Shown here: positions 12,004 through 28,859 of the stretch, piece after piece
How the letters are laid out: each line of letters opens with the position of its first letter
How positions within the stretch are numbered: position 1 is the stretch's first letter
Assembly: GCA_022706235.1 (NCBI GenBank)
Contig: JAKJCY010000012.1
Span: 3,992 to 41,916 of the forward strand
Source of the DNA: Candidatus Hydrogenedentota bacterium
GTDB taxonomy: Bacteria; Hydrogenedentota; Hydrogenedentia; Hydrogenedentales; CAITNO01
Reading direction: 5' to 3'
Length of the DNA stretch: 37,925 nucleotides
Notes under the pieces: model-generated
Seen by the model: the letters and a program-made list of their open reading frames with translations, nothing else
Told to the model about the DNA's origin: nothing
Databases searched by the model: none
Program-made: the position numbers and the translations under genes

Positions 12004-13371
12004 TCAGAAAACGAGGATATCCACCCGCCTGGCGTTATCACCGCCGGGGCGGAACAGCACCATATCCCTGGCTTTGTTATGGTTCAGGTCATAGGCGCGC
12101 GCGGTTCCGAAAGCGGGCATCTTGAATTCCTGCCATGGCCGGGAGCCGATAAACCGTTCGGGGTCCCCCGTATACACGGCCAGGGTATCGCTTTTACTGC
12201 CATAGGCGACATCCAGCCGCCCGTCGCCGCTGAAATCGCCGAAAGTATAAGCCACCCGTTCTCGGCCTTCCGGCGCATCCATGCTCATGCTGGTGTGATA
12301 ATCCGCCTCCTGATTGAATTTTTCGCCGTCAAACAGGTGTACTTCCGCCTGGACCGCGAGTTTGCCGCGTACGAAAAAGTTGACCAGGTTTTTCACACCG
12401 AAGGGTATGCGGATAAAAATCAGGTCCAGCCGTTCATCCCCGTTGACGTCCATCACCAAGGGACTGGAAACTGCGCCGCTGGCGGAAAACACGGCATCGG
12501 GCTTCTCCGGATAGACAAAGGGTTCCCGGGCAAGGTAAACGTGCGTCTCCGCATACATGCGCACCGTGCCCCGGGTCTGGGTAATCACAATGTCGGGAAA
12601 GCCGTTGCCGTTGATATCCTTCATGGAGGCGGAAGCGTCCCACTTCTCCTCAAGATTCATCGGCAGCCGCACACGTTTTTGTTGTGACCAGGCGTCTCCG
12701 TAGGCGAAATCGGCAAATTCATCACTGAGAAAGGCCAGACCGAGCGCCTGGCGGCCTTCAAGCGTAAAGGAGACAAAATCAGGCAGCCGGTGTATGATGT
12801 ACAGACTGTCACCGGAACGCATCTCGCTGACAACATCACAGGACAAAAACGCCACTTCCCGGGTTAACGTACGCACCTGGACCCCCCCGGCCACCGGGAG
12901 CAGCCACTCCTCTATACCATCCCCCTGCAGGTCCACGGCGCCCCATTTGGCGAAACAAGGCTCCCGGCTGTTTGTAGGATAGAGAGCGTTGAACCGGACC
13001 GTCTCAAGCACCGAAAATCGGCCCCCGGCAAATTGATATACGGTGGCGCCGGTGCCGTGGGCCGCCACGATTTCCCGCGGCGACTGGCCATCCACTTCGG
13101 CAGCAAAGACCACACCGGTCTCCACGGGCAGATCCAGCAGCGGTGCCGGTTCGCGGCCGTACGCGCCGGATACTTCCGCCATGCAAACCGCCAGCTGTTT
13201 GCGCGGTGGAAACGCCGTTTCATCATTGGTCAACAGGAGAACATCCCCGAGCCCATCCCCGTTCATGTCCGTTACGGACACATCCCATACCGGCTGCCCG
13301 GTTCCCACGGTATAGACGCCCGCCTCCACTTGAGCCCACAAGGCGACTGCAAGCACGAAATACCCATTCAT
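12004..13371 (-). CDS. Secreted FG-GAP/VCBS-like beta-propeller protein
   Basis: A 455-aa protein with a short signal peptide (cleavage likely after AQVEA, residue 17). It contains at least five calcium-loop-like FG-GAP/VCBS motifs: DMNGDGLGDVLLL (35-47), DINGNGFPDIVIT (~250), DVNGDERLDLIFI (~307), DFSGDGRLDVAYG (~379) and DLNHNKARDMVLF (~427). These repeats build integrin-like beta-propellers found in exported proteins of many uncultivated bacteria. No enzymatic motif is recognised. AAGGA lies about 9 nt before the ATG. The gene converges with the hybrid kinase (57-nt gap) and diverges from clpC. Its function is unknown; extracellular or periplasmic binding is inferred. Confidence 0.85.
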   Translation of the reverse strand: MNGYFVLAVALWAQVEAGVYTVGTGQPVWDVSVTDMNGDGLGDVLLLTNDETAFPPRKQLAVCMAEVSGAYGREPAPLLDLPVETGVVFAAEVDGQSPREIVAAHGTGATVYQFAGGRFSVLETVRFNALYPTNSREPCFAKWGAVDLQGDGIEEWLLPVAGGVQVRTLTREVAFLSCDVVSEMRSGDSLYIIHRLPDFVSFTLEGRQALGLAFLSDEFADFAYGDAWSQQKRVRLPMNLEEKWDASASMKDINGNGFPDIVITQTRGTVRMYAETHVYLAREPFVYPEKPDAVFSASGAVSSPLVMDVNGDERLDLIFIRIPFGVKNLVNFFVRGKLAVQAEVHLFDGEKFNQEADYHTSMSMDAPEGRERVAYTFGDFSGDGRLDVAYGSKSDTLAVYTGDPERFIGSRPWQEFKMPAFGTARAYDLNHNKARDMVLFRPGGDNARRVDILVF

Positions 13372-13391
13372 GGTGTTTTATCCTTAATTAC

Positions 13392-13413
13392 GGTGCCGCC
13401 CGCGGGCGGCACC
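13392..13413. repeat. 22-bp perfect GC palindrome in the divergent intergenic region
   Basis: GGTGCCGCCCG is followed directly by its exact reverse complement, giving a 22-bp palindrome next to an A8 tract (13419-13426). It lies in the leader of the minus-strand propeller gene, just upstream of its AAGGA, and about 80 bp before the clpC promoter. There is no T-tract in the right place for an intrinsic terminator on either strand, so an operator or 5'-UTR hairpin is more likely. Confidence 0.55.
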
Positions 13414-13494
13414 ACTTTAAAAAAAAGGGCGACCGCAGCTCCGCAGAAAGCGCATATTCTCAGCAACGGGCCGCCTCCGGTTCGCCGTTTGTTT

Positions 13495-13523
13495 TTGGGA
13501 TTCGGCAGCCTTCGTGTTATAAT
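13495..13523 (+). promoter_or_regulatory. sigma70-like promoter for clpC
   Basis: TTGGGA (13495-13500) and a perfect TATAAT (13518-13523) are separated by 17 bp. The predicted transcript would begin near 13530, about 55 nt before the clpC ATG. This supports the internal ATG at 13584 over upstream in-frame starts. Confidence 0.6.
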
Positions 13524-13583
13524 CTGCACGATTTCAGGATGCAGAGTCAACAGACACAACTTTTCAGGGTAAGCGGTTCATAT

Positions 13584-16046
13584 ATGTGGGATAGGTTTAC
13601 AGAGAGAGCCAAACATGTAGTAAGCACAGCGCGCGAGGAGGCTGTTCGCCTGAACAGCGAATATGTCCGCACGGAACACATTTTGCTGGGCCTGTGCAAG
13701 GAGTCGGAAGGTATTGCCGCACATGCTCTGGAGAACCTGGGCATTGAGGCGGAAAAACTAATCGCTGAAATTGAGGAACATGTGCAGCCGGAAGCGCCCG
13801 CCATGACCGGGGGCGAAATTTCCTTTACGCCGCGCGCCAAAAAAGTGCTGGAATTGGCCGTTGAAGAGGCGCGCCACTTCAACCACAATTACATCGGCAC
13901 CGAGCATATTCTGCTCGGCCTGATCAAAGAAGGGGAGGGGAAAGCGGCCAAAGTGCTGCGGGACATGGATGTTGACATCGGCCGGTTGCACGCGGAGGTG
14001 GTCCGGTTGCTGGGCGGCCAGCACCACCAAAGCACAAATGAAGCCGCCGGCAGCCGCAAGTCACAGACGCCCGCACTGGATACCTTCGGCCGCGACCTGA
14101 CTCAGATGGCCCGGGAGCACAAACTCGACCCGGTCATCGGGCGTCAATCGGAAATTGAACGCGTCATCCAGATACTCAGCCGGCGGACCAAAAATAATCC
14201 CGTCCTGATCGGCGAAGCCGGCGTCGGCAAGACCGCGATTGTGGAAGGTCTGGCACAGGCGATTACCAGCGGCGATGTGCCGGATTTGCTCCTGAACCGA
14301 AGAGTACTCACCCTGGACCTTGCCGGCGTGGTGGCGGGCACCAAGTACCGGGGCCAGTTTGAGGAACGGCTCAAGGCGGTCATGAAAGAAATCCGCCGCG
14401 CGGATAACAGTATCATTCTCTTCATCGACGAGCTGCACACCATTGTGGGCGCGGGCGCCGCGGAAGGGGCCGTTGACGCCGCGAATATTCTCAAACCGGC
14501 GCTTTCCCGGGGCGAACTGCAGTGCATAGGCGCCACCACAATGGACGAATACCGCAAGTACATCGAAAAAGATTCCGCCCTTGCGCGGCGTTTTCAGACT
14601 ATCCTGGTGAACGCCCCCACGGTCGACCAGACCATCGATATTATCAAGGGTTTAAGCGACAAATACGAAGCCCATCATCGGGTAAAATTTTCCGAAGAAG
14701 CGATCGTGGCTGCGGCAAGGCTGTCGGACCAGTACATCACGGACCGATTTCTCCCCGACAAGGCGGTGGACGTCATTGACGAGGCGGGCAGCCGCGCGCG
14801 ATTGTTGATCACGACACGCCCCCCGGTTCTCAAGCAACTCGCCCAGGATATCGCGGAAGCCACGAAGGAAAAAGAATGCGCCATCAGCAATCAGGAATAT
14901 GAGAAAGCGGCTGCCCTGCGCGACCGCGAACGCACCCTGATCGCCGCCCTGGAAGATGCCAAACACGAGTGGGAACACAAGCGCAACTCCTCGGAAACAG
15001 TCATCTCCGAGGAAGATATCGCCTACATCGTCTCCAAATGGACCGGTGTTCCGCTGACGAAACTGGAGGAGAAGGAATCCTCACGGCTGCTCCGCATGCG
15101 CGATGAGTTACATAAGGTGGTGGTAGGCCAGGACCAGGCTATTGATGCCATCACACGCGCCATCCAGCGTTCCCGGTCGGGCCTGCGCGGCCATAGCCGC
15201 CCAGTGGGCTCATTTCTGCTCCTCGGGCCGACAGGCGTGGGCAAAACTTTGCTGGCCAAAGCGTTGGCCGAATTTCTGTTTGGCAACCAGGAAGCCCTGG
15301 TCACCATTGACATGTCGGAGTTTATGGAAAAGTTCGCGGTGTCCAGGCTCATCGGCGCACCGCCCGGATACATCGGGTTTGACCAGGGGGGCCAGCTGAC
15401 CGAGATGGTGCGGCGGCGGCCGTATTCGGTCGTTCTCTTCGATGAAATCGAAAAAGCCCATCCCGACGTCTTCAACACGCTGTTACAGGTCCTGGAGGAA
15501 GGACACCTGACCGACAGCACTGGGCGCAAGGTGGACTTCCGGAACACGGTCATCATGATGACCTCCAACGTGGGCGCCCGGCGCATCGGTAAAAACACCT
15601 CGCTGGGCTTTTATCGCGACGCCGAAGAAGAGAACTACGGCCGCATGAAAGACCGCGTCACGGAAGAGGCCAAAAAGATATTCAACCCCGAGTTTATGAA
15701 CCGCATCGACGAGATTCTCGTCTTCCACCGGCTCACGACGGCCGACGTGATGAAAATAGTTGAAATTCAGGTGCAAGAAGTGGTAGATAGAGTGGCGGAA
15801 AAGCACATTCACCTGGAACTGACCGAACAGGCAAAAGAATTTCTGGTGCGTATTGGGAGCAGTGAGGAGTACGGGGCGCGTCCTCTGCGGCGCGCCGTTC
15901 AGCAATACGTGGAAGATCCTTTGGCTGAAATCTTGTTAAAGAGCGAGATGATCGCTGAAACAACCATTACCGTGCAGCCCTCGGACATCGGCGACAGGCT
16001 GATGTTCACTGTGGGCGCACCGACCGCGGAAGGTTTACTCTCGTGA
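13584..16046 (+). CDS. clpC: ATP-dependent Clp protease ATPase subunit ClpC
   Basis: An 820-aa Hsp100 unfoldase that would feed substrates to ClpP. It opens with the classic [10 protein letters not shown] start and carries two Clp_N repeats in the first ~145 residues. AAA module 1 has Walker A GEAGVGKT (210-217). The middle region contains a UVR-like motif ([14 protein letters not shown], ~434) that marks ClpC rather than ClpA or ClpB. AAA module 2 has Walker A GPTGVGKT (548-555), [12 protein letters not shown] as Walker B, and an LGF tripeptide in the ClpP-docking loop position. The frame is open back to 13143, but that part is antisense to the propeller gene and lacks Clp homology. The length fits the family. 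Its stop overlaps the bamA start by 4 nt (GTGA), suggesting translational coupling. No adaptor gene (mcsA/mcsB) is adjacent. Confidence 0.95.
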
Positions 16047-18361
16047 AAAAAAATTACGGAAAAGGCTGGTATGTTCTGACACTTACGGTGGCATTGGCAT
16101 GGGCTGCGTTTCCGGCGGGAGCGCAGGAAAACGCGGCACCCACCATACGGGAAGTGCGCATTGAAGGGCTGCAGCACATCAGCGAAGCCGCCGCGCGCGC
16201 GCGCATTGAGGCGCAGCCCGGCGCCGTGTATGATGCCGCAGTGGCGGCCCGGGACATTAAACGCCTGTATGAGAGCGAATTCTTTGACACGGTCAATTCC
16301 GAAGTGCGCGAGGCCGGCGCCCAGGTCGACCTGGTCTATATCGTCACGGAAAAACGCATGATCGACGAGGTGCGTATCATCGGCAACCGCAAAGTGCGCA
16401 CGCCCCATCTCCGCGCCGTGTTGAAAATGCGCGAGGGCTCGTCCTTTGAGCCGAACCTCTTCGAAGAAGAGCGCAAGGCCATCCTGGATCTCTACCAGGG
16501 CAAAGGGTACGCCAACACGTCCGTGGAAGTCGTTGCCGAGAACATCGGCCCCTCCCAGGTCCGTTTGGTTTACAACATCAACGAGGGACGCAAGGTGCGC
16601 ATTCGCAGCATCAATTTCGCGGGCAATGAAAACCTGCGTTCACGTACGTTGAAAAAAGCCATAAAAACAAAACCCGGCTGGTGGTTTATCGGCGGGCGCT
16701 ACGATGAAGCCAAGTTCAGCGCGGACCTGGACACCATCCTCAACGAATACGGAAATCGCGGTTATCTCGAATCCAACATCACGGGCACGGATATGGCCTT
16801 TTCCGAAAACGGGAAACGCGTGGACATCACCGTTCATCTCGAAGAGGGGCCCCAGTACAGCGTCGACACGCTGGACATCGCCCAGAATGTGGTATTTGAT
16901 GACGAAGAACTGCAGTCCTCCATTGAAGTGATACCCGGCGAAATCCATGACAAAGGGCAGGTTACGGCGGACGCGGAAGCCGTTGAAAAAGCCTATCAGG
17001 ACAGCGGCTATGTGGACGCCGTGGTAACGCCCCAGATCACGCTAGACAAGGAAAAGAAAACCACCCATGTGGTCTATGACATCAGCGAGGGCGATCTGAA
17101 GTATTTGCGCGAGATACGTATCACGGGCAATGACGTCACCAAGGACGAAATCATTCGCCGGCAGATGCTGCTGATTCCAGGCGAGCGCTATGACGGCTCA
17201 GCCGTGGATGAAAGCGAAAAACGCATCAACAATACGCGCTTCTTCGAAAAGGTGCGCATCACGCTGGACGAAACGGACGACGAACTGTTTACTGATTTGC
17301 TGGTCAACGTTGAGGAAGGCAAAACGGGCACCTTCAACTTTGGCGCGGGCTACAGCACGGAAGACCGGCTGGGCGTATACTCCGAGGTTCGCCTCAACAA
17401 TTTTGACCTGCTCAATTTTCCGACGTTCTCCGGCGGCGGGCAGCAACTGCGCCTGCGTGTGCAGGTCGGCGACCGGCGCGACGAATACAACCTCAGTTTC
17501 ACGGAACCGGAGTTTCTGGGCTATCCCCTCTCCTTCGGATTCGACCTGTTTGACGAATCCTACCGGGTACGGGGCGCCGCCCGCTACCGCGAAGATACCC
17601 GCGGCGGCCAAATCCGTTTCGGTAAGGCATTGTCCCCTTACGTGACGGTTCAAACGGCCCTTCGCGTCCAGGAAACGGACCTGAGCGAACTGGACTGGTA
17701 TGTCCACCCGGAACTCAGGCGGCAAGCGCGCGAATCCACCACCGTCGCGAACAGCTGGCAGATCGAGCGCAATACGTTGGACGCGCGGTTCGACCCGAAC
17801 TACGGATCCCTGCACATTCTTGCGGCGGAGGTCGCGGGCTTCGGCGGCGACCACGAGTTTCTGCGGTTCGAACACGACTCCTCCTGGTTCCGCTCCCTGG
17901 GCGATGCCAAGAAACTGGTACTCTCCCTGCGTGCCAGGCACGGTGTTATCACCGAGTACGGCAGTTCCGACTTCATCCCGCTGCAGGAGCGGTATTATGC
18001 CGGCGGCACGAACACGGTACGCGGTTATCGCAACCGCGACATCGGCCCCAAGATTCGTGAATACTGGTTCTGGGGAGACCGTTTCGCCATCGGCGGCAAC
18101 GCCCGCAGTATTTACAACCTGGAACTCAAGTACCGGGTTACCGATATCTTCAGGGTTTACACCTTCGCCGATGCCGGCGGGGTCTGGGAAGACGTCGGCG
18201 ATTTCAGCCCGGGCGACATCAACTACAGTGTCGGCGCCGGTATCGGATTCAATGTGCCCATGTTCGGGCCCATCCGCGTGGACTATGGCTATCCGCTCAA
18301 TCCCGGAAGGCACCAGAGCAGTTCCGGGAGACTGCACATGTCCACCGGCTTCCGCTTCTAA
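16043..18361 (+). CDS. bamA: Outer membrane protein assembly factor BamA
   Basis: The central component of the BAM complex, which folds and inserts beta-barrel proteins into the outer membrane. The 772-aa precursor has a signal peptide (cleavage near AFPAGAQ, residue ~28). Five POTRA domains follow up to ~425 (for example TIREVRIEGLQHIS and LREIRITGNDVTKDE), then an Omp85 barrel to the C-terminus. The conserved barrel loop motif V659-R-G-Y is present, and the chain ends in an aromatic residue (MSTGFRF), as expected for an outer-membrane barrel. The start is a GTG sharing 4 nt with the clpC stop, with GGAAGG 9 nt upstream. Skp follows after 210 nt with its own promoter. Confidence 0.95.
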   Translation: MKKNYGKGWYVLTLTVALAWAAFPAGAQENAAPTIREVRIEGLQHISEAAARARIEAQPGAVYDAAVAARDIKRLYESEFFDTVNSEVREAGAQVDLVYIVTEKRMIDEVRIIGNRKVRTPHLRAVLKMREGSSFEPNLFEEERKAILDLYQGKGYANTSVEVVAENIGPSQVRLVYNINEGRKVRIRSINFAGNENLRSRTLKKAIKTKPGWWFIGGRYDEAKFSADLDTILNEYGNRGYLESNITGTDMAFSENGKRVDITVHLEEGPQYSVDTLDIAQNVVFDDEELQSSIEVIPGEIHDKGQVTADAEAVEKAYQDSGYVDAVVTPQITLDKEKKTTHVVYDISEGDLKYLREIRITGNDVTKDEIIRRQMLLIPGERYDGSAVDESEKRINNTRFFEKVRITLDETDDELFTDLLVNVEEGKTGTFNFGAGYSTEDRLGVYSEVRLNNFDLLNFPTFSGGGQQLRLRVQVGDRRDEYNLSFTEPEFLGYPLSFGFDLFDESYRVRGAARYREDTRGGQIRFGKALSPYVTVQTALRVQETDLSELDWYVHPELRRQARESTTVANSWQIERNTLDARFDPNYGSLHILAAEVAGFGGDHEFLRFEHDSSWFRSLGDAKKLVLSLRARHGVITEYGSSDFIPLQERYYAGGTNTVRGYRNRDIGPKIREYWFWGDRFAIGGNARSIYNLELKYRVTDIFRVYTFADAGGVWEDVGDFSPGDINYSVGAGIGFNVPMFGPIRVDYGYPLNPGRHQSSSGRLHMSTGFRF

Positions 18362-18434
18362 AAAAAGGGTCCGTTTCGCGGGCATGATACAGGTCGTATA
18401 AGGTACAGGCATCCTACCCTGTCTCCGGTCGTGA

Positions 18435-18464
18435 TTGCATCATTTCCGGCATACATGGTATACT
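18435..18464 (+). promoter_or_regulatory. sigma70-like promoter for skp
   Basis: TTGCAT (18435-18440) and TATACT (18459-18464) have an 18-bp spacer. They lie in the 210-nt gap after bamA, about 100 nt ahead of the skp GTG. skp is therefore probably transcribed independently as well as by read-through. Confidence 0.5.
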
Positions 18465-18571
18465 GCCCCGCGTTGGTTCATATGCATGCAACAACCTACC
18501 CCGCGCGCATCGGGTGTTTGTAAACGTACATCCAGCCGAACAGCGTGCGCAACGATTGAAGGAAACCTATT

Positions 18572-19132
18572 GTGAGTATTCAAGCAGGCTTTTCAAGATG
18601 CTGTTTAACCTTGGCTTTAACCGCAGCGATGGCGCTTACCCTGTTTCCGAGCGGGGCATTTTCCCAGGCGAACGAAGGCGGCCAGTACCGTATCGCCGTG
18701 GTGGATATGTCTCTGCTGATGGCGGAATATAACAAGCGCAAGGAAAAATACGACGAACTGCAGAAGGAAGTCGACCGGTTGCAGGTCGAAATCGATGCGA
18801 TGTCGCAGCGCATTGAAAAGGCCAAGGAAGAATATGAAGCGAACCGGGCGAACATGACGGATGATGAACGGTTTGACAAACGCGCCCAGATAGAATCCGA
18901 CTTCGGGCAGTACCGCAGCGAACTCGAGCGGCGTCAACGCCTCATTGACACGCAGGAGGAGCGCGTGTTGAAAGAAGTGGTGACCGATATCGAGAAAGTG
19001 CTTACGGGCATTGCGGAAAAAGAAGGGTACCACCTGGTACTGAACGCCTCGAAAGGCCCCCGGGCCAGCGTGCTCTATCACAGTGCCACCATTGACATCA
19101 CCCCCCGTATCCTCGAGGAACTGAATAAGTAG
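18572..19132 (+). CDS. skp: OmpH/Skp family periplasmic chaperone
   Basis: A 186-aa protein with a signal peptide (hydrophobic core LTLALTAAMALTLF, cleavage near AFSQA). The mature protein starts with a beta strand (YRIAVVDMSLLMAEY), followed by a long charged coiled coil (~50-130, EKYDELQKEVDRLQVEID) and a C-terminal strand. This is the Skp/OmpH tentacle arrangement. It would hold unfolded outer-membrane proteins in the periplasm before delivery to BamA, whose gene is directly upstream. The start is GTG 18572 with AAGGAA (18558-18563). The bamA-skp-lpxD order is widely conserved in Gram-negative bacteria and supports the call. Confidence 0.9.
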   Translation: MSIQAGFSRCCLTLALTAAMALTLFPSGAFSQANEGGQYRIAVVDMSLLMAEYNKRKEKYDELQKEVDRLQVEIDAMSQRIEKAKEEYEANRANMTDDERFDKRAQIESDFGQYRSELERRQRLIDTQEERVLKEVVTDIEKVLTGIAEKEGYHLVLNASKGPRASVLYHSATIDITPRILEELNK

Positions 19133-19290
19133 TATGCCGGCTGCTGCCGGAATGCGCTTTCGGAAGACGTCACATTGGGTCTTTCACTCTGCGGCTTGGA
19201 TGACCGTGCCATCCTATGGGCCCATGGTTTTTTCCTTCGAATTGCGATAGTGTCTCCGGCTACCTGCATGGATACGCATTCAAGAATAAG

Positions 19291-19320
19291 ACGCGTTCCA
19301 AATTAAATTTTGGAACGCGT
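19291..19320. promoter_or_regulatory. 12-bp perfect inverted repeat over the lpxD promoter
   Basis: ACGCGTTCCAAA (19291-19302), a 6-nt loop TTAAAT, then TTTGGAACGCGT (19309-19320). The right arm contains the -35 hexamer of the putative lpxD promoter. There is no T-tract after the stem, so an operator for a dimeric regulator is more plausible than a terminator. It lies about 160 nt after the skp stop. A DNA/RNA hairpin role cannot be excluded. Confidence 0.6.
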
Positions 19321-19338
19321 TCATCATTACCCTACAAT
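19310..19338 (+). promoter_or_regulatory. sigma70-like promoter for lpxD
   Basis: TTGGAA (19310-19315) and TACAAT (19333-19338) have an optimal 17-bp spacer. Transcription would start about 65 nt before the lpxD ATG. The -35 element sits inside the right arm of a perfect inverted repeat. Confidence 0.5.
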
Positions 19339-19409
19339 AGTTACCGTATACACACGCCAGCAGCCATAGCCGGTTTACACGGTTGTTACAGCAGGAGAAT
19401 ACTCCCAGT

Positions 19410-20462
19410 ATGGAGATCAAGGTCCGGCAAATCGCGGAACTTGTGGGCGGCACGGTGCAAGGTGATCCGGAAACCGTGATTCACGGGGTAAATGGATTAC
19501 AGGAAGCCCGGCCGGGCGAAATCACGTTCGCGCGCAGCCCCCGTTATTTTGACCAGCTCCGCCTATCCAAAGCATCCGCCGCCCTCGTACCCTCCCCGGT
19601 TCCCGACGCCCCGATGGTAACGATCTGTGTGAAATATCCTGATATGGCCTTCCTGATGACGCTGAATCAACTGGCGCCTCCGCCTTCCCGCCCCCCTGCG
19701 GGTGTCCACCCCGGCGCCTGTATCGCGCCAGGGGTTCTCCTCGGAGCAGATGTCACGGTAAGTGCCTTTGTATACATTGATTCCGGGGCTGTCATCGGGG
19801 ACCGCACCGTGCTGTACCCTGGCGTGTACATCGGCCCTCGTTGCCGTATTGGCACCGATACCGTCCTCTACCCCAATGTCGTGGTCCGTGAGGACACGGA
19901 AATCGGTGCCCGGTGTGTCATTCATGCCGGCGCGTGCATCGGCAGTGACGGTTTCGGTTTTGCGGACCTGAGCGGACACTGGCACAAAATTCCCCAAACA
20001 GGAATAGTTGTAATAGGGGATGATGTTGAAATAGGAAGCAATACCGCCATAGATCGCGCAACCTTCGGTGAAACGCGGGTCGGTTCGGGTACGAAGATTG
20101 ACAATTTAGTTCAAATTGGGCACAATGTACAAGTAGGTGAACATTGTGCCATCGCCGGCAAAGCGGGTATCGCGGGCAGCGCCCGAATCGGCAATCATGT
20201 GCGCATCGGCGCGGATGCCGGAATAGCGGGCCATATTTCCATCGGCGACGGCGTGAGTGTAGGCGCCCGGGCCGGCGTGATGCGTTCCATACCGGAAAAT
20301 AAGACGGTATCAGGATTTCCCGCCATTGACCACAGTAGGCAGCGCCGGGTGATGGTGGCGCAACAGCGCACCCCCGAAATGCTGCATCAACTGGCCAGGA
20401 TCGAGCGGGATATCAAGGAGTTGAAAGACGATTTACACCATGAAACAACGGACAATCAGTGA
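19410..20462 (+). CDS. lpxD: UDP-3-O-acylglucosamine N-acyltransferase LpxD
   Basis: The third enzyme of lipid A synthesis: it transfers an acyl chain from ACP to the 2-amino group of UDP-3-O-acylglucosamine in the cytoplasm. The 350-aa protein has the N-terminal LpxD uridine-binding domain (~1-100, with PGEITFARSPRYFD). A left-handed beta-helix of hexapeptide repeats follows (~105-310), then a C-terminal helix. The catalytic histidine is H238 in VQIGHNVQVG. ATG 19410 is preferred because the family homology begins there (MEIKVRQIAELVGG) and AGGAG lies upstream at 19393-19397; a TTG at 19383 has no ribosome binding site. The next gene starts inside its last codons. Confidence 0.95.
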   Translation: MEIKVRQIAELVGGTVQGDPETVIHGVNGLQEARPGEITFARSPRYFDQLRLSKASAALVPSPVPDAPMVTICVKYPDMAFLMTLNQLAPPPSRPPAGVHPGACIAPGVLLGADVTVSAFVYIDSGAVIGDRTVLYPGVYIGPRCRIGTDTVLYPNVVVREDTEIGARCVIHAGACIGSDGFGFADLSGHWHKIPQTGIVVIGDDVEIGSNTAIDRATFGETRVGSGTKIDNLVQIGHNVQVGEHCAIAGKAGIAGSARIGNHVRIGADAGIAGHISIGDGVSVGARAGVMRSIPENKTVSGFPAIDHSRQRRVMVAQQRTPEMLHQLARIERDIKELKDDLHHETTDNQ

Positions 20463-21762
20463 AACGGTTTCCTATAACGGCGTGGGCCTGCATACGGGCA
20501 GCCTTACCACGGTGACCTTCAAGCCCGCTCCGGCGGACACGGGCATTGTGTTTTACAGGACGGACCTGGATGCGGCGCCGGCCATACCGGCGCTTGTGGA
20601 CAATGTTGTGGACGTGTCCCGGGGTACCACCATCGGCATCGGCGATGTCAAGATCCACACCATTGAACATGCCATGTCCAGTCTGGCGGGCCTGGGCATT
20701 GACAATCTCATCGTGGAAGTGGACGCGGACGAGATCCCCGTGGGAGACGGCAGCGCCCTTCCGGTCATGAATACGCTTCTCAAGGCAGGTATCGTCGAAT
20801 TGGAATCGGAAAAGCAATATATCCGCGTCGACCACCCGGTTTACTACCGCAAAGATGATGTGACGCTGAGCATTCTACCCTCCGACGACCTGCGCATTAC
20901 CATGACGATCGCCTATGACCATCCGACGGTAGGTACCCAGTACGCCTCTTTCACCATAACGGAGGACGCCTTTCGAAAGGAGCTCGCCCCGGCGCGCACG
21001 TTTTGCTTTCTCCGGGAAGTGAAGATGTTGCAGGAAGCGGGGCTCATCCGGGGCGGCAGCCTGGAAAGCGCCGTCGTTATCGGCGACAACGGCATTCTCA
21101 ATGACACGCTGCGTTTCCCGGACGAATTTGTGCGTCACAAGATATTGGACCTTCTGGGGGACACCTATCTGCTCGGCCATCCGCTCAAAGGCCATATCAT
21201 CGGCGCCAAGTGCGGCCACGAGAAGAACGTGAACTTTTCCAAGCAGATTCAAAAGGTTTTCGCCGGCACAAGACCGGAATTCCTGCTGCGCCCTTACAAG
21301 CAGAAGGTGCGTCGCACCCCGCCCGCGCTGGATGTGAACAAGATCATGAAAATCCTCCCCCACCGTTATCCTTTCCTTTTGGTGGACCGGATTTTAAGTT
21401 ACGAGCCCTTCAAAACCGTCACGGGCATTAAGAACGTCACGGTGAACGAGCCCTTTTTCCAGGGGCACTGGCCGCATATTCCTGTAATGCCCGGCGTCCT
21501 CATCATCGAGGCCATGGCGCAAGTGGCCGCCGTGCTGGTTTTCGGCGACAACGGGGAAACGAACGGCCGGCTGGCGTTTCTCATGGGCCTTGAAAAGGCG
21601 CGTTTCCGTGATACCGTGGTCCCGGGCGACCAACTGGTGCTGAAAGCGGAAATGATGCATTACCGGCATAATGCCTGCAAAATAAGGGCTTATGCGCTGG
21701 TGGACGACGCCATCGCCGCTGAGGCGGTGATGTCCTTCGGCATCATGCAACTGGAAGAATAG
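20440..21762 (+). CDS. lpxC/fabZ: Bifunctional LpxC deacetylase / FabZ dehydratase fusion
   Basis: A 440-aa fusion. Residues 1-~290 are LpxC, the zinc-dependent UDP-3-O-acyl-GlcNAc deacetylase that commits the cell to lipid A synthesis. Zinc ligands H77 (in TIEHAMSSLAGL), H233 and D237 (VRHKILDLLGD) and catalytic E76 are present, with H260 in KCGHEKN. Residues ~298-440 are FabZ, the (3R)-hydroxyacyl-ACP dehydratase, with H308 in LPHRYPFLLVDR and E357 in IIEAMAQ. Both active sites look intact. Such fusions are known in Bacteroidota, Chlorobi and several PVC lineages and balance lipid A with fatty-acid synthesis. The ATG overlaps lpxD by 23 nt. lpxA, often next in this order, does not follow here. 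Confidence 0.96.
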   Translation: MKQRTISETVSYNGVGLHTGSLTTVTFKPAPADTGIVFYRTDLDAAPAIPALVDNVVDVSRGTTIGIGDVKIHTIEHAMSSLAGLGIDNLIVEVDADEIPVGDGSALPVMNTLLKAGIVELESEKQYIRVDHPVYYRKDDVTLSILPSDDLRITMTIAYDHPTVGTQYASFTITEDAFRKELAPARTFCFLREVKMLQEAGLIRGGSLESAVVIGDNGILNDTLRFPDEFVRHKILDLLGDTYLLGHPLKGHIIGAKCGHEKNVNFSKQIQKVFAGTRPEFLLRPYKQKVRRTPPALDVNKIMKILPHRYPFLLVDRILSYEPFKTVTGIKNVTVNEPFFQGHWPHIPVMPGVLIIEAMAQVAAVLVFGDNGETNGRLAFLMGLEKARFRDTVVPGDQLVLKAEMMHYRHNACKIRAYALVDDAIAAEAVMSFGIMQLEE

Positions 21763-22057: not shown

Positions 22058-23161
22058 TCAGTCCGCGGCGATGGCGTCCAGTTCCAATTCGAAGAGCAAA
22101 TCGTCCCGGCAAATATCCGTATGGGCGAGAATGCCGGGGAGGCGCGGCATGCCGCGTTCGCGCATGCAGGCCGCCAATTCACCGGTATCTTCAGCGTGTT
22201 TAAAGTAGGCAATGGACCGTGAAACACTGTTCCAGTCCATGCCGCGGGATTCCAGAATGGCCTGAATAACATCCAGCGTCAGTTGAACCTGTGCGCGGAT
22301 ATCACCGATATGTACGCTCGCTCCGGAAGGTTCAATACTTGCGGTGCCGGACACAAACAGGCGGTGTACCCCGCCCGTGGCGAATTCCACGGCGCGGCTG
22401 AAGGCGCTTCCATATTCAAAGGAAGGCCGCTGCAGGGGCGAAGGCACTTCCACAAGGGCGGCCTTGTTTTCCGGATACGCCATCGCTATCAGTCCGCCCG
22501 TGAGCGCGGCCCCGCCGCCGTTCCAGCAGCCGATGCCCGTACTTGCCGGCACAAGCCGGTCTAACAAGTTGCGCTCCATAAAGAACGCCGTGCGCACCGC
22601 GTTAAAAACATCGTACCATTCCAGCATATCCCGGTTATAAAACCAGGTGCGCGCGACATGCGTGAAATCCATGCCCACTTCGCCCAGGGCGCGCTCCATG
22701 AGATGAAACACTTCCCGCGTCTGCTCTTTGCGGGATGCGGAACAATCTTGCGGCACGATGCCGCCCAGGCGGCAGTATTGAACGCCGTTCACACGGTAGG
22801 AAACGCCTGCCAATGTGCTGCCAAGGCGCAGCGGAACGACTTCGGGCCCTGCGATAGCCCGCGCAAGAACGCCATAGAAAGACGCGGCATGGGCCTTGCG
22901 GCCTTCCAGCCAGGTGACGGGACACGGTAATGGGCCAAAAGCATCCTGCACTACGGGCAGGGCGTCACCGGGAACGCCGAACACATCCAGCGAAAGGGGA
23001 ATCGCCCCTTTCTCTTGTATGACCCGCGCCAGGCGCTGACAGTCCGCCTGAAACGCTTCCGTAGCCTGCCCCTGCACGGCCAAATAATAGTGAACACTTC
23101 CGGGGCGCTCCATGGAAACGACTTGCACATCATCATCCAGATTTTTGGTAAGCACATTCAT
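22058..23161 (-). CDS. Chorismatase (FkbO/Hyg5)-like protein with RidA-fold C-terminal domain
   Basis: A 367-aa cytoplasmic protein. The C-terminal half resembles the RidA/YjgF-fold domain of chorismatases and related proteins: THVARTWFYNRDMLEWYDVFN, SGTASIEPSG and HIGDIRAQVQLTLD. The N-terminal ~160 residues resemble the chorismatase N-terminal domain. Chorismatases hydrolyse chorismate for secondary metabolism. The catalytic residues are not fully assignable by eye, so a different small-molecule hydrolase or deaminase is possible. ATG 23161 is used; an adjacent in-frame TTG at 23164 would give a better spacing (9 nt) from AAGGAA. It converges with the glutaredoxin-like gene (16-nt gap). No biosynthetic cluster surrounds it. 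Confidence 0.7.
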   Translation of the reverse strand: MNVLTKNLDDDVQVVSMERPGSVHYYLAVQGQATEAFQADCQRLARVIQEKGAIPLSLDVFGVPGDALPVVQDAFGPLPCPVTWLEGRKAHAASFYGVLARAIAGPEVVPLRLGSTLAGVSYRVNGVQYCRLGGIVPQDCSASRKEQTREVFHLMERALGEVGMDFTHVARTWFYNRDMLEWYDVFNAVRTAFFMERNLLDRLVPASTGIGCWNGGGAALTGGLIAMAYPENKAALVEVPSPLQRPSFEYGSAFSRAVEFATGGVHRLFVSGTASIEPSGASVHIGDIRAQVQLTLDVIQAILESRGMDWNSVSRSIAYFKHAEDTGELAACMRERGMPRLPGILAHTDICRDDLLFELELDAIAAD

Positions 23162-23212
23162 CAATAAACTATATTCCTTAACCCCCTGGTTCTGTTGTTA
23201 AACACCGCCCCC

Positions 23213-23450
23213 ACGGGGAAGTTCCCCAAAAACCTCAATCTCCGAAAACGCGCGACCCGACTTGAGACAAGGCTCCAGCGTTCCGTTAACACAAGATGCC
23301 ACCCGGATACGCACACGGCGCAAAGGCGGCGCTTGGCCCGAAGGCAATGCGCCCCGGACCGGAACGGTCACCACAAAGCGTCCTGCGTTCTTTTCCGGAC
23401 AAAGGCCGCCCTGTGCATCGCCGAACCTTTTACAGGGAAAGCACGTAGGC
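23213..23450 (-). pseudogene. Possible stranded C-terminal fragment of a discoidin-like domain
   Basis: Between the cytochrome gene and the chorismatase-like gene, one minus-strand frame reads GRFVVTVPVRG, then RRVRIRVASCVNG and SGRAFSEIEVFGE before a TAA. The ending AFSEIEVFG is typical of F5/8-type C (galactose-binding) domains. The segment has no convincing start and overlaps the last ~20 nt of the cytochrome gene in another frame. It may be the frameshifted tail of that gene or what is left of a deleted one. It could also be an open frame without meaning. Confidence 0.35.
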
Positions 23451-25274
23451 GACCAGGTCGTCCAACGGCTCCGCACTCAACCCGGAGGTCTTTCCATGAC
23501 GGTCTTCCGTGTTGCAGGTGGTGAGCAGATCATGGAGGGTGGCGGCGCGGCCGTCATGGAGATAAGGCGCGGTGCGCCAGACCTCAACCAGTGTGGGGGT
23601 GTCCACCGGCTTGCCTTCATCCAGGCCTTTCGTAAATCCCAAATTGTGGAGTTTCAAATCGGTAAATAAGGGCTCCGGATGGCATACGGCGCATCCTGCC
23701 TGTGAAAAGACTTCTTTGCCGCGTGTCGCGGCTTCGCTCAGCGCCCCGCCTTCCAGTTGCGGGCTGGGCACCGGCTTCATAGACTTAAGATACCTATCAA
23801 TGGCAACAGCGTCTTCTTCGGGCCGGACCGCGAACTGTATGTATTTGATGCCGGCACGCACGGCAAGTTCCGCCTGGTCGCGAACGCCCAGCGCCATAAC
23901 CGGCGGTGTCTGATGCGACAACAGCATGCTGCGGCTGTTTTTAGGATTACCAATGCCGTCATTCATGAGATCCCAGTTCAGACCATCAACCCGGGCATCG
24001 GGATGGCAGCTGGCGCAGCTTTGCCAGTGTTGAAAACACAGGGCGGCATCGTTGAAATAGATCTCACCCTGCCGTTCGGGCGTTATTGCCTGAGCCTCGC
24101 TCAACGCGGTCTGAATAATATCACGCTTGCCCTGGGATTCCAAGGGGACTTCGGTGATGCTGTCGGAGAAATAGAGCGGCACATAGGCTTTTGTATTGTC
24201 CAGCCAGAGCGCCCGGGGCCCGATGCCGGGCAACTTAACACGCGTGCGCAGCCCCACAAGAAAGGCCAGGTTGTTCGGCACGGCGGCGGCGTCTTTTTCG
24301 TTCAGTTGCGCCAGGCGGTCGTGCAAGGATGCCCGGTCCAGAATGCTCAGTTCATGGGTGCCCGCATGGGTAACGCACAGGAAGCGCCCGTCGGGGGTAC
24401 AGGCCACGGCGCTGGGGTTGGCGGCGCCCAAATCCACATCATCCAGAAGGACCGTGTTGATGAGGCGCTTCTCTTTGGCGTCCAGAATACTCAGGGCGTT
24501 GGTATTCATCCAGCCCCGTTCCAACTGCGTGGTAGGCAGGTGATACCGTCCCAAAATATGGGCCACATACACATATTCACCGCCGGGAGACGGGCAGATA
24601 CCGCGCAGGGCGGTGCTCCCGTTCGGCAGCGGTACCGGCGGCGCGGCTTCCAGCGTCACCGTATCGATTACGGTTACACCCGCCGAGGTATAGTCGCCGT
24701 CGGAGGCGCCCGCCGGCAAATGGTTCGCCACGAAAAGCAGCGCACCGCCGGCGGCAAGCGTCATGGCTACCGGTTCCCGGGGAACGGGAATCTTAGAAAG
24801 GACACTATTCGTTGCGGGGTCCACTACCGCAACGGTGTTATCGAAACGGTTCGCCACGAACACACGGTCGCCCGCCGGGCTGACAACAACGGCCACCGGC
24901 GTATGACCGGTCGGCACCCGGGCAGTCACGGCCCCCGTCGCCACGTCCGCCACCAGCAGAGCGCCGTCGGACGACGCTCCGGCAATGTACAAGGTTTTCC
25001 CATCCGGAGACAGGGCCAACCCTTCAGGAGCGAGGGGCAATTCGATGCGGCGCGCCACCGTTTTCGAAGCGCCATCGAAGACGGCCACCGTATTGGAACC
25101 GTATTCCGAGACATACAAGGTGGTTCCGGCGGTATCTCCCGCCACGGCCGAAGGGGAACGGTACTGTTGCGCCATTGCGGAACAAGAAAGAACCAGCAAT
25201 AAGGCCGTAAGCAACAATTCTCCGCACAAGAATTGTCGCACCATGTTATTTGGCATGAGTGTCCTGCTTTTCAT
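23430..25274 (-). CDS. Secreted YVTN beta-propeller / di-haem cytochrome c (cytochrome c peroxidase-like)
   Basis: A 614-aa exported protein. After a signal peptide (LLLTALLLVLSCSAMA), residues ~30-375 form a YVTN/lactonase-type beta-propeller (TLYVSEYGSNTVAVFDG, LALSPDGKTLYIAG, VVVSPAGDRVFVANRFDN). The C-terminal ~230 residues carry two haem c sites, C420-A-S-C-H424 and C528-A-V-C-H532. The downstream sequence TPTLVEVWRTAPYLHDGR is typical of the cytochrome c peroxidase/MauG family. It probably acts in periplasmic electron transfer or peroxide/oxidative chemistry. ATG 25274 is chosen for GGAAAGG just upstream; ATG 25256 with its own AGGA is a close alternative. It diverges from the NHL/HZS-like di-haem gene, suggesting related roles. 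The substrate is unknown. Confidence 0.85.
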   Translation of the reverse strand: MKSRTLMPNNMVRQFLCGELLLTALLLVLSCSAMAQQYRSPSAVAGDTAGTTLYVSEYGSNTVAVFDGASKTVARRIELPLAPEGLALSPDGKTLYIAGASSDGALLVADVATGAVTARVPTGHTPVAVVVSPAGDRVFVANRFDNTVAVVDPATNSVLSKIPVPREPVAMTLAAGGALLFVANHLPAGASDGDYTSAGVTVIDTVTLEAAPPVPLPNGSTALRGICPSPGGEYVYVAHILGRYHLPTTQLERGWMNTNALSILDAKEKRLINTVLLDDVDLGAANPSAVACTPDGRFLCVTHAGTHELSILDRASLHDRLAQLNEKDAAAVPNNLAFLVGLRTRVKLPGIGPRALWLDNTKAYVPLYFSDSITEVPLESQGKRDIIQTALSEAQAITPERQGEIYFNDAALCFQHWQSCASCHPDARVDGLNWDLMNDGIGNPKNSRSMLLSHQTPPVMALGVRDQAELAVRAGIKYIQFAVRPEEDAVAIDRYLKSMKPVPSPQLEGGALSEAATRGKEVFSQAGCAVCHPEPLFTDLKLHNLGFTKGLDEGKPVDTPTLVEVWRTAPYLHDGRAATLHDLLTTCNTEDRHGKTSGLSAEPLDDLVAYVLSL

Positions 25275-25459
25275 CGTTACCCTTTCCAAGATTATGACTG
25301 GTCCCAGCCTGATTATGTTTCACATCCCCGAATCTGCCATCACAAGACGGGCAAATTGCGCCAAAACAGGACATCAGTATGCCATAAACAGGGCGCTCCA
25401 TCAAAAAGTCTTTTCGGAGAACTCTTCCGTAAAACAGGGCGCTGTCGACAGGAAAAATC

Positions 25460-25486
25460 TTGCACAAGGACCGCTTATGGTACACT
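25460..25486 (+). promoter_or_regulatory. Weak sigma70-like promoter for the NHL/HZS-like gene
   Basis: TTGCAC (25460-25465) and TACACT (25481-25486), with a short 15-bp spacer (16 bp if the -35 is read as CTTGCA), lie 55 nt before the ATG at 25542. The match is modest, but it is the best in the 267-nt divergent gap. Confidence 0.35.
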
Positions 25487-25541
25487 AGAAGAGCACGCTG
25501 TATTCTTAAATTTCATCCCCAAACCGAGAGGTCTAGTCAGA

Positions 25542-28500
25542 ATGATGAAACTGACCAATAAAATCCCGTGCATTATCGTATGCGTGTGCGTCACAGCATC
25601 CATCGGCGCCTCGGCTGCGGACGCCCCGGACCGACTGATGACCCTGGAAGGCTTTGCCCAGCCGGAGTGCGTCGTTGTTGATCCGGAAAGCGGTGCCGCC
25701 TACGTCTCTAACATAAATTCCAAGGAAGAAACATATTGGCAGGACACGGAAGCGGGCTTTCTGTCACGGTTGAAAGCCGACGGCTCCCTGGACACACTCA
25801 AATGGCAGGAAAGTACGGTGGAATTCCCCATCCATCAGCCCAAAGGCATGTGTATTTTAAACGGCACTCTGTATGTGGCCGACAATACGCGGGTCCTTTC
25901 CTTTTCCCTGCCCGATGGCAGGGACAAGGCCGTATACCCCGTTCTCGATGCGCAACGTCTCAATGACATGGCGGCGGGTGAAGGCAAGGTTTACGTAACC
26001 GATGTCGCCTCCGGCAAAATAGTACGCCTGGACACGAGCGGCCGGGGCAATCATGACGTTGTGGCTCGCATTGAGGGGGTAAACGGCATCACGCTTCGGG
26101 ATGGCGCCATGTATGCCGTGTCGTGGACCCGGCATGAGGTATACGGGCCTCCCACGGACGGTTCACTCCCCCCTGTGCCGTTCGGGCTGGCCGGGCATTT
26201 CACCAACCTGGACGGCATAGAAACCCTTCCGGACGGCCGTTTTATTGTCTCGGATTTTACAGGCAATAAAGTCGCAATCATTTCCGCCGACCGACGCACC
26301 GTCAACACGCTTTGCACCCTCCCCACACCCGCCGATATCGGTCTTGACCCGGGCGGCAACCGCCTGTATATACCACAGATGAACAGCGGCACCGTCGTTC
26401 TCCTCGCCTTGCACCCGGAAGGTGAAGCAACGCCCCTTTCTTCCGTGCGAGACCGCGAATTTGAGGAACTTAAACGCCAGATTCAGGACCGTCCGAACTG
26501 GGATAACGCGCGTCTTGCCCGCGAGGCCCATCGTCCCGAGGCACTGGTGCTGGAATCGGACCGCACACCGGTGGACATTGTCTGGCGCCGCACAAAGGCC
26601 CTGCTGGAACACCTGCGTTCCCTGGAAAACGGCCCCGATTTGACCGAAGAGGCGACGGCTTTGGACCGGCTCCGTCTGTCCGTGACCGAAACCCGGGATG
26701 AAGCCGCCCGGCACGCCCTGTTTCACGAGATTTGCGCCCTGCGACGCCAAATCGCCTTTTCAAATCCCCTGCTGGATTTTGACCGTATCCTGTTCCTGAA
26801 ACGGCACAAGTCCATTTTTGAGCATATGTGCGACCAGTATTACGGCATCACGGCGCGCCCCGGCGGCGGCATGTATATTCTTGAAAACGCCTTTAGTGAC
26901 GCGCCCCGGGCGCGGGACCTGCTCGCCGATGCCGTGGTGGAAACGGGACGCCTGCAGGGGCAACACCTGCGGGGGGGTACGAGCCCGGCAACGCTTTCCT
27001 ATGACGGCGAAGGCGTACTGACCGAATCAGGCGACCCGGGCGGCGGCGCGTTTCTTTCGCCGGACCTGTCCTATGACGGAAAACAGGTCTTGTTTTGTTA
27101 TGTGGAGTGCCGGGGCGACCCCCGCCACCAGTACCGCCGGGAGGAACAAGGCAACTATTGGAGTGAGCACTGGGACCCGGGCCGGGCTTACCATATCTTC
27201 AAGGTGAACGCGGACGGCACCGGCCTGACCCAACTGACGGACGGCACGTGCAATGACATTCATCCCTGCTGGCTTCCCGACGGGCGCGTGGCGTTTGTAT
27301 CGGAGCGGCGAGGCGGATTTCTGCGTTGCGGGCGGGTGTGTCCCACCTATACCCTGTACCAGATGCACGCCGACGGTTCCTTCGTCCGCCCGCTCAGCTA
27401 CCACGAGACTCATGAATGGCTGCCCAGCGTGGACCACCACGGCATGATCGTGTACACGCGCTGGGACTATGTGGACCGGGACAGCGACATCGCGCACCAC
27501 TTGTGGCTAACCTATCCCGACGGGCGCGATCCGCGTGGCCCCCACGGCAATTATCCCCGCCTTCGCGAACTCCGGCCCTGGATGGAAATGTCCATCCGCG
27601 CCATTCCCGGCTCTTCCAAGTACATCGCCACGGCGGCGACCCACCACGGGCAGCATTTCGGCTCACTGATTACCATTGACCTGCGCCAGGAAGACGACGC
27701 TTCCACGGGCCAGATTCGGCGCATCACGCCGGAAGCCATGTTCCCCGAGGCGGAATCGGCGCCGGGAGTGCCCCACACCCCGCGCGGCAAAGGAAACAAC
27801 GGCCAGGTCTACGGCACGCCCTGGCCGCTCAACGAGGATTTTTACCTGGCCGTGTACGATCCGGGGCAACAGCACCATGACCTGTACCTCGTGGACAGTT
27901 TCGGCAACCGGGAACTCCTCTATCGCGACCCGGACATTGCGTGTTCCAATCCGGTCCCCCTGAGACCGCGATCTGTGCCGCCGGTCATTCCGGTGCAAAC
28001 GCGCTATGCCGACCCGCCGCAGGAACAACCGGACACGGGCACGATTGCCGTCATGAATGTCTATGATTCACTTCGTCCATTTCCGGAAGGCACCCGGCTC
28101 AAGGAATTGCGCCTGATACAGCTGTTCGCCAAATCCACCCCCCATCCCGATGACCCGTGGGTCGGCGCCGGCGACCAGTCCGTGGCCCGGGGCTCCCTGG
28201 GCACGGTTCCCATCGAAGAGGACGGCAGCGTGTATTTTGAAGCGCCCGCCGGCGTCAGTTTTTACTTTCAGGCCCTGGATGAACGGGGTCTCGCCGTGCA
28301 GACCATGCAATCGGACACCTATCTTCATCCCGGCGAACACCTGTCCTGCACGGGCTGCCATGAGCCCAAACAACAATCACCGGCGCTCCCGCCCCGGTCG
28401 CCGCTGGCCCTGCGGAAACCGCCCGCCAAACTGACACCCGAACCTGACGGGTCCTACCCCTTGCAGTTCTCCCGGCTGGTGCAACCCGTACTTGACGCGC

Positions 28501-28859
28501 ACTGCCTTTCCTGTCACGATACCGGCGGCGACGCGCCCTGCCTTGCCGGGGACGTCTTTGTAGAAAATGGATGGTCGCAGGCCTTTAGCGGGCTGAAACC
28601 TTTCGCCTGGGCGTTGCACGGCGGTAATTTTGTCGGGCTGCAGCGCAACAAGACCTCCTACAGCATTCCGGGCAAGGTGGGTGCGCGGGCCTCCAAACTG
28701 CTGGGCCTGTTGGAATCGGGACATCACGGCGTGGAACTCTCTCCGGAAGAATGGCGCAGGATTACCTTGTGGCTTGATGGCAACAGCATGTTTTACGGCG
28801 ACTATCACGATACAGTCGCGCAGGCCAGGGGCGAACGGGCGACCCCCAGACTGAAGTGA
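25542..28859 (+). CDS. Secreted NHL-propeller / hydrazine-synthase-alpha-like di-haem protein
   Basis: A 1105-aa exported protein. It has a signal peptide (IPCIIVCVCVTASIGASAADA) and an N-terminal NHL/SMP30-like propeller (~30-290; PECVVVDPESGAAYVSN, ADIGLDPGGNRLYIP). A linker (~295-400) joins this to a large region resembling the hydrazine synthase alpha middle domain (~405-900; FDRILFLKRH, GGGMYILENAF, CWLPDGRVAFVSERRGG, TLYQMHADGS), which includes TolB-like blades. The C-terminal section holds two haem c motifs, C936-T-G-C-H940 and C988-L-S-C-H992. Relatives are widespread in Planctomycetota and other PVC-type genomes and most are not hydrazine synthases. ATG 25542 follows GAGAGG; an open frame upstream lacks homology. 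The neighbouring divergent gene is also a propeller/di-haem protein. Periplasmic redox enzyme is inferred; substrate unknown. Confidence 0.8.
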   Translation: MMKLTNKIPCIIVCVCVTASIGASAADAPDRLMTLEGFAQPECVVVDPESGAAYVSNINSKEETYWQDTEAGFLSRLKADGSLDTLKWQESTVEFPIHQPKGMCILNGTLYVADNTRVLSFSLPDGRDKAVYPVLDAQRLNDMAAGEGKVYVTDVASGKIVRLDTSGRGNHDVVARIEGVNGITLRDGAMYAVSWTRHEVYGPPTDGSLPPVPFGLAGHFTNLDGIETLPDGRFIVSDFTGNKVAIISADRRTVNTLCTLPTPADIGLDPGGNRLYIPQMNSGTVVLLALHPEGEATPLSSVRDREFEELKRQIQDRPNWDNARLAREAHRPEALVLESDRTPVDIVWRRTKALLEHLRSLENGPDLTEEATALDRLRLSVTETRDEAARHALFHEICALRRQIAFSNPLLDFDRILFLKRHKSIFEHMCDQYYGITARPGGGMYILENAFSDAPRARDLLADAVVETGRLQGQHLRGGTSPATLSYDGEGVLTESGDPGGGAFLSPDLSYDGKQVLFCYVECRGDPRHQYRREEQGNYWSEHWDPGRAYHIFKVNADGTGLTQLTDGTCNDIHPCWLPDGRVAFVSERRGGFLRCGRVCPTYTLYQMHADGSFVRPLSYHETHEWLPSVDHHGMIVYTRWDYVDRDSDIAHHLWLTYPDGRDPRGPHGNYPRLRELRPWMEMSIRAIPGSSKYIATAATHHGQHFGSLITIDLRQEDDASTGQIRRITPEAMFPEAESAPGVPHTPRGKGNNGQVYGTPWPLNEDFYLAVYDPGQQHHDLYLVDSFGNRELLYRDPDIACSNPVPLRPRSVPPVIPVQTRYADPPQEQPDTGTIAVMNVYDSLRPFPEGTRLKELRLIQLFAKSTPHPDDPWVGAGDQSVARGSLGTVPIEEDGSVYFEAPAGVSFYFQALDERGLAVQTMQSDTYLHPGEHLSCTGCHEPKQQSPALPPRSPLALRKPPAKLTPEPDGSYPLQFSRLVQPVLDAHCLSCHDTGGDAPCLAGDVFVENGWSQAFSGLKPFAWALHGGNFVGLQRNKTSYSIPGKVGARASKLLGLLESGHHGVELSPEEWRRITLWLDGNSMFYGDYHDTVAQARGERATPRLK

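Follow-up and report, generated by a model that had tools for sequence, protein, structure and literature searches.

What would a bacterium that is not an anammox organism do with the subunits of hydrazine synthase (HZS), an enzyme that, to our knowledge, was long held to be without relatives? The question is raised by a stretch of 37,925 nucleotides from a Candidatus Hydrogenedentota bacterium (GenBank assembly GCA_022706235.1, contig JAKJCY010000012.1, positions 3,992 to 41,916; the whole stretch is called the window here, and positions are counted within it). In it, two divergent genes, A and B, encode proteins with beta-propellers and haem-binding CXXCH motifs. The genome comprises 5.0 Mb in 545 contigs and is 88% complete. 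A sequence-only reading of the window had described both genes, their propellers, two CXXCH motifs in each and a divergent gap of 267 nucleotides (nt), all of which we found at the positions it gave. The interpretation we favour, with belief and doubt about evenly matched, is that the two products are the halves of a two-site, HZS-like haem enzyme that works outside the cytoplasm without making hydrazine, and that the enzyme has a shared beta-gamma core and interchangeable alphas.

Homology of genes A and B to hydrazine synthase

The features on which the comparison turns are as follows (aa, amino acids).

23430..25274, minus strand: gene A, predicted secreted HZS beta-gamma-like fusion, 614 aa
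aa ~39-376 of gene A: beta-like YVTN-type propeller
aa ~400-614 of gene A: gamma-like di-haem part
24036..24038, minus strand: gene A, extra Cys413 (CX6CXXCH), present in 81 of 81 A sequences and lacking in HZS gamma
24003..24017, minus strand: gene A, haem gamma-I motif CASCH (aa 420-424), invariant in 81 of 81 and aligned with the gamma-I CASCH of HZS
23679..23693, minus strand: gene A, haem gamma-II motif CAVCH (aa 528-532), invariant in 81 of 81
23496..23498, minus strand: gene A, His593, equivalent of gamma His332 and putative distal ligand of haem gamma-II, from alignment to 5c2v_C
25275..25541, no strand: divergent intergenic region, 267 nt, partly kept in two relatives
25542..28859, plus strand: gene B, predicted secreted fusion of an NHL propeller and an HZS-alpha-like protein, 1105 aa
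25632..26405, plus strand: gene B, NHL or Cj1041c-like propeller (aa 31-288)
28347..28361, plus strand: gene B, haem alpha-I motif CTGCH (aa 936-940), with no Tyr at the Tyr591 position
28503..28517, plus strand: gene B, haem alpha-II motif CLSCH (aa 988-992)
28722..28727, plus strand: gene B, His1061-His1062, candidate alpha-II distal ligand (HZS alpha His772); the HZS alignment is one residue out of register here

Judged by its sequence and predicted structure, gene A is a fused beta-gamma homolog of HZS. Its top family was the NCBIfam HZS beta-gamma fusion NF052342 (E 3.1e-46), where its 158 bits fall below the 1250-bit cut-off; the single-subunit families gave 1.9e-29 for HZS beta and 2.2e-24 for HZS gamma, and MauG gave 7.5e-10. 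A profile built from 29 orthologs was colinear with the solved subunits of Kuenenia stuttgartiensis HZS (PDB 5C2V), matching 5c2v_B at 1.2e-47 and 5c2v_C at 1.4e-32, and the predicted structure (pTM 0.82) had HZS beta as its top PDB match (E 4.6e-29, TM 0.87 of the target). The gamma part shares with HZS gamma the string FNDA..SCASCH..GLxWDL..DG.G..KNTK and, close to its end, DxHGxTS. The His of the latter motif is gamma His332, which serves as distal ligand to haem gamma-II, and 79 of 81 A sequences retain it. On alignment, haem gamma-II thus retains both of its His positions. Since the fusion model also matches proteins of E. coli and Bacillus, the propeller alone is not specific to HZS, and it is the gamma part and the ranking of the fold matches that make the assignment specific. 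Sequence, fold and His332 together overturn the earlier statement that no HZS beta or gamma was present. The named close relatives of gene A belong to Candidatus Hydrogenedentota, and in the HZS of Scalindua japonica beta and gamma are fused as well.

On the same two kinds of evidence, gene B joins a Cj1041c-like NHL propeller to an HZS-alpha homolog. PF18582 (HZS_alpha) matches it at E 1.7e-19, and it reaches 45.8 of the 800 bits set as the cut-off of the HZS alpha family, which is below threshold. Among PDB entries, HZS alpha, 5c2v_A, ranks first for its predicted structure (pTM 0.66), with 841 columns aligned (E 2.1e-23, TM 0.59 of the target), so the HzsA-like region proposed from the letters alone has a structural counterpart. 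The N-terminal part resembles Cj1041c of Campylobacter jejuni by sequence (PDB 22gu, ~24% identity) and by fold (22gw, TM 0.82 of the target); that protein stands alone in Campylobacter, whereas here it is fused to an HZS-alpha-like protein. A literature search found no function for Cj1041c.

The two products together would carry four c-type haem sites, as HZS does. The motifs are not there by chance, because both are invariant in 81 A sequences and at least two CXXCH occur in all 103 alpha cores. The distal His of alpha-II is probably kept in the alphas as well: in 92 of the 103, W[LIV]D is preceded by a His at a distance of 15-17 residues. A hydrophobic leader precedes each protein (signal peptides were judged by eye alone). 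The mechanical open reading frame of gene B opens further upstream, at 25233; we placed the start at 25542 because the leader and the orthologs favour it, which leaves the gap of 267 nt.

Active-site residues and the published homologs

Three features distinguish HZS: an iron ligand supplied by alpha Tyr591, the residue gamma His144, and gamma Cys165, which makes a third thioether (PMC12758564, PMC12607021). None has a counterpart here. No Tyr stands at the Tyr591 position in gene B (CTGCHEPKQ) or in any of the 103 alphas; among the 81 A sequences, no His is found at the His144 position, occupied mostly by Ser, Ile, Val or Ala, and no Cys in the Cys165 region, which has Ala, Ser or Lys instead. 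Hydrazine synthesis is unlikely because these residues are absent, and the earlier expectation of some other periplasmic redox chemistry is favoured accordingly. We judge it extremely improbable that the pair makes up a genuine hydrazine synthase outside the anammox bacteria: counterparts of the alpha, beta and gamma subunits do occur together in genes A and B, but besides the missing residues the HZS family scores are far under their cut-offs, and hydrazine synthesis has been rejected for related non-anammox homologs (PMC12758564). We rejected an anammox pathway likewise, on the missing residues; a search for PF13447 (hydroxylamine oxidoreductase-like) gave no match, and gave none in any control genome either.

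The window pair is of the kind described in that work (PMC12758564; Hagglund et al., Genome Biol Evol, Dec 2025), whose clades I-IV, all from non-anammox organisms, combine an HZS-like alpha gene with a co-located fused beta-gamma gene; alpha Tyr591 is missing there too. In gene context our pair resembles clade IV, with variable gene order and with FG-GAP and ABC-transporter genes not beside the pair, whereas FG-GAP genes adjoin the clade I-III pairs (PMC12758564). An FG-GAP repeat protein is encoded in the window at 12004-13371 (minus strand), ~10 kb from gene A and not adjoining it. Differences from the published pairs are that gene A lacks the Trp reported at the gamma His144 position in clades I-III and the Cys165 reported in clade I, and that A and B have no extra N-terminal haems. 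From true HZS the system differs further in the extra Cys413, in the NHL domain on alpha and in its many alphas per genome; it shares with 5C2V the subunit folds, the bis-His gamma-II haem and a sixth-blade beta loop, with Glu in most A sequences.

The surroundings of haem gamma-I are odd: the key position holds neither a Trp nor a His. Together with the many surface-type accessory domains described below, this could suggest that A and B are not enzymes but electron-transfer or sensing proteins, whose propellers bind a ligand or a surface while the haems hand electrons on to an acceptor outside the cell. We regard that as unlikely. W417, W434 and R465 are strictly conserved around gamma-I in A proteins, and Glu486 mostly so, which exceeds what haem binding needs; the architecture is that of an HZS-like enzyme, and an enzyme-like gene lies downstream of A.

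Gene neighbourhoods, the third gene and the alpha paralogs

The enzyme-like gene is a nearly constant companion of A.

22058..23164, minus strand: chorismatase/Rid-like gene, 368 aa, directly downstream of A on the same strand, with a match to Hyg5/FkbO

Its product shows no signal peptide by eye. When 80 relatives were searched, strong copies were found in 34 genomes, all of which hold A, and in 33 of the 34 the gene lies directly downstream of A; clustering places it in at least 24 of 80 named loci. It aligns to the chorismatases Hyg5 and FkbO, sharing the tandem Rid-type fold, a conserved FEIE and a CRDDLL end, with Hyg5 the nearer (SGTAS and CRDDLL). The region of the catalytic Glu, Glu334 near the C-terminal end of Hyg5 (PMC7170507), is kept; FEIE is at least 90% conserved in the chorismatase/Rid-like set (A3), the exact register of its two Glu being uncertain. 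Chorismatase activity is only predicted, because the score of 56.9 against 325 bits (TIGR04444) is far under the family cut-off. In a Candidatus Hydrogenedens genome, a radical SAM/SPASM protein with weak similarity to AhbD/NirJ directly follows the Rid-like gene (L089:13203-14363).

We surveyed the best 80 loci of A relatives, out of a larger number; their records carry the labels Hydrogenedentota, Planctomycetota, Verrucomicrobia, Lentisphaerae/Victivallales, Kiritimatiellae, Latescibacterota and Armatimonadota. Of the 70 loci with flank, 43 have an alpha-like gene no more than ~1.5 kb upstream of A, and 4 have one downstream. The upstream alphas share the strand of A in 45 of 46 cases, and often two stand in tandem. 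Counting only loci with both flanks, A adjoins some alpha paralog in 42 of 64, across several phyla; with ~14 alphas in 5 Mb, we estimate that chance would bring A and an alpha together in a few per cent of cases. The exact divergent arrangement of A and B was found only in the genus of the window (three genomes, G000, G002 and G003), and close relatives of gene B, several of them NHL-fused, sit away from A in other Hydrogenedentota genomes. The proposal that the two genes form a linked pair therefore survives in a changed form: A recurs beside alphas, but its fixed partner is the chorismatase/Rid-like gene and not B. NHL proteins also occur as a separate gene of the cluster. One locus has a stand-alone NHL gene after A and the Rid-like gene (L119), three keep the same order (L100, L101, L104), and another has an NHL gene, then an alpha, then A (L144); gene B thus fuses parts found apart elsewhere.

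Alphas far outnumber A. The window genome has one A and 14 PF18582 proteins; among relatives, the number of alphas ranges from 0 to 21 (median 8) where A is present and is mostly zero where A is absent. At least three alphas were present in 35 A-bearing genomes and not in 5, against 3 and 37 of those without A (Fisher p 1.3e-13), or 35 and 5 against 3 and 25 within the order (1.7e-10), figures that shared ancestry inflates. A and alphas are jointly absent in separate families (G006 and G011 in f1; G046 and G050 in f11). We also counted both genes in 20 genomes from other lineages of the Planctomycetes-Verrucomicrobia-Chlamydiae (PVC) superphylum, picked for holding A: there were 279 alphas against 38 A-like genes, with an alpha present in 19 of the 20. 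The alphas beside A span several subfamilies and vary between genomes, and for most of them the window genome has a relative on another contig.

These counts bear on another explanation, that A, alone or with the chorismatase/Rid-like protein, is a di-haem peroxidase of the bacterial cytochrome c peroxidase/MauG type, and that the alphas, B included, are independent surface cytochromes that often lie nearby. We consider it possible, though distinctly doubtful. A is tied more closely to the Rid-like gene (33 of 34) than to alphas (42 of 64), the excess of alphas fits independent proteins, and the gamma part of gene A, with its two-haem fold, falls in the CCP_MauG superfamily (PF03150). Yet relatives without A are almost devoid of alphas, and alphas immediately upstream of A, in its own orientation, are found repeatedly in different phyla. 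Gene A itself differs from the peroxidases in its fused propeller and its HZS-type distal His332; it lacks the peroxidase Trp, and the MauG scores of gene A are far lower than its HZS gamma scores.

Many alphas bear additional domains. Among 45 A-linked alphas, 27 carry a domain like the formylglycine-generating enzyme (FGE) and others carry F5/8C or LamG; the types in the window genome are FGE-like (5), NPCBM (1), LamG with a Mala_s_1-like part (1) and NHL (gene B). In these 27, and likewise at L168, L169, L170, L171 and L172, the HZS-alpha-like proteins end in an FGE-sulfatase-like domain that apparently lacks the first Cys of the active motif. The examples show RGGSWxDRP where the active enzyme has a Cys, and the FGE-like domains probably do not generate formylglycine. 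A Tat-signal protein of ~230 aa, cupin-like by eye, is encoded at L119:889-1575, with relatives near A or alphas in L088, L104, L111, L131 and L147; a Pfam search of it found nothing beyond the TAT signal.

At four loci of Lentisphaerota/Kiritimatiellota type (L106, L128, L134 and L139) the operon runs on after A and the Rid-like gene into apparent siroheme-dependent haem synthesis. By family, L106:13228-16594 encodes AhbC and AhbA/B over cut-off and an AhbD-like protein under it, and L134:9133-17004 encodes a HemA/CysG-like protein, HemC with CobA and HemD, and HemB. The link is confined to loci of that type: in the window genome we found a single cytochrome c assembly gene and no clear AhbC.

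In the gap between A and B, ATCAGTATGCCATAAA (window 25373-25388) is kept in two relatives whose proteins show about 70-91% identity. We rejected this block as a regulon site, the genome holding no further exact copy of ATCAGTATGCCATAAA, and scans for promoters and terminators gave results no better than shuffles. Elsewhere in the window, at 13143-21762 on one strand, lie a Clp-type AAA ATPase, Omp85/BamA, an LpxC-FabZ fusion and what we take to be an LpxD-like gene, an outer-membrane assembly region that shows a Gram-negative envelope.

A proposed model: one core and many alphas

If A and B do form an HZS-like enzyme, its course can be sketched by analogy with HZS. Electrons would enter at haem gamma-II and move on to gamma-I, the site at which a small molecule would be converted; the product, or the electrons, would then go past the beta loop to the alpha-I haem, probably His-ligated in gene B, for a second step. 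The gene numbers, the changing neighbours and the modular build of the alphas suggest that one beta-gamma protein serves many alphas, whose accessory domains (NHL in B; NPCBM, LamG, F5/8C and FGE-like elsewhere) may choose the target.

Several observations weigh against this interpretation. The model of gene A has low confidence at the gamma-I pocket itself (aa 429-482); no alpha stands beside A in 22 of the 64 loci with both flanks; and shared ancestry underlies part of the co-occurrence of A and alphas. Three genomes have alphas with no detected A (G017, G058 and G061) and five have A with at most one alpha (G032, G054, G056, G059 and G067), all in incomplete assemblies. Glycans are perhaps the target, a weaker step than the others, drawn from the types of accessory domain.

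The main text of PMC12758564 makes no mention of the third gene, nor does it cover the expansion of alphas and their accessory domains, the fusion to NHL, the haem operon or the presence of such genes in Hydrogenedentota. A wider proposal, which we offer tentatively and with rather little confidence, is that these parts make up a widespread system of the PVC superphylum, in which one HZS-beta-gamma-like core, many modular alphas with target-binding domains and a dedicated chorismatase-like gene carry out an undescribed chemistry, and that HZS was recruited from this stock. Common relatives of HZS that lack the hydrazine-making residues, with a fixed operon gene and many alphas, would provide concrete proteins in which to seek the ancestral activity. 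They would also help to assign a function to PF18582, a family present in 10-30 copies in many PVC genomes under the misleading name of "hydrazine synthase alpha."

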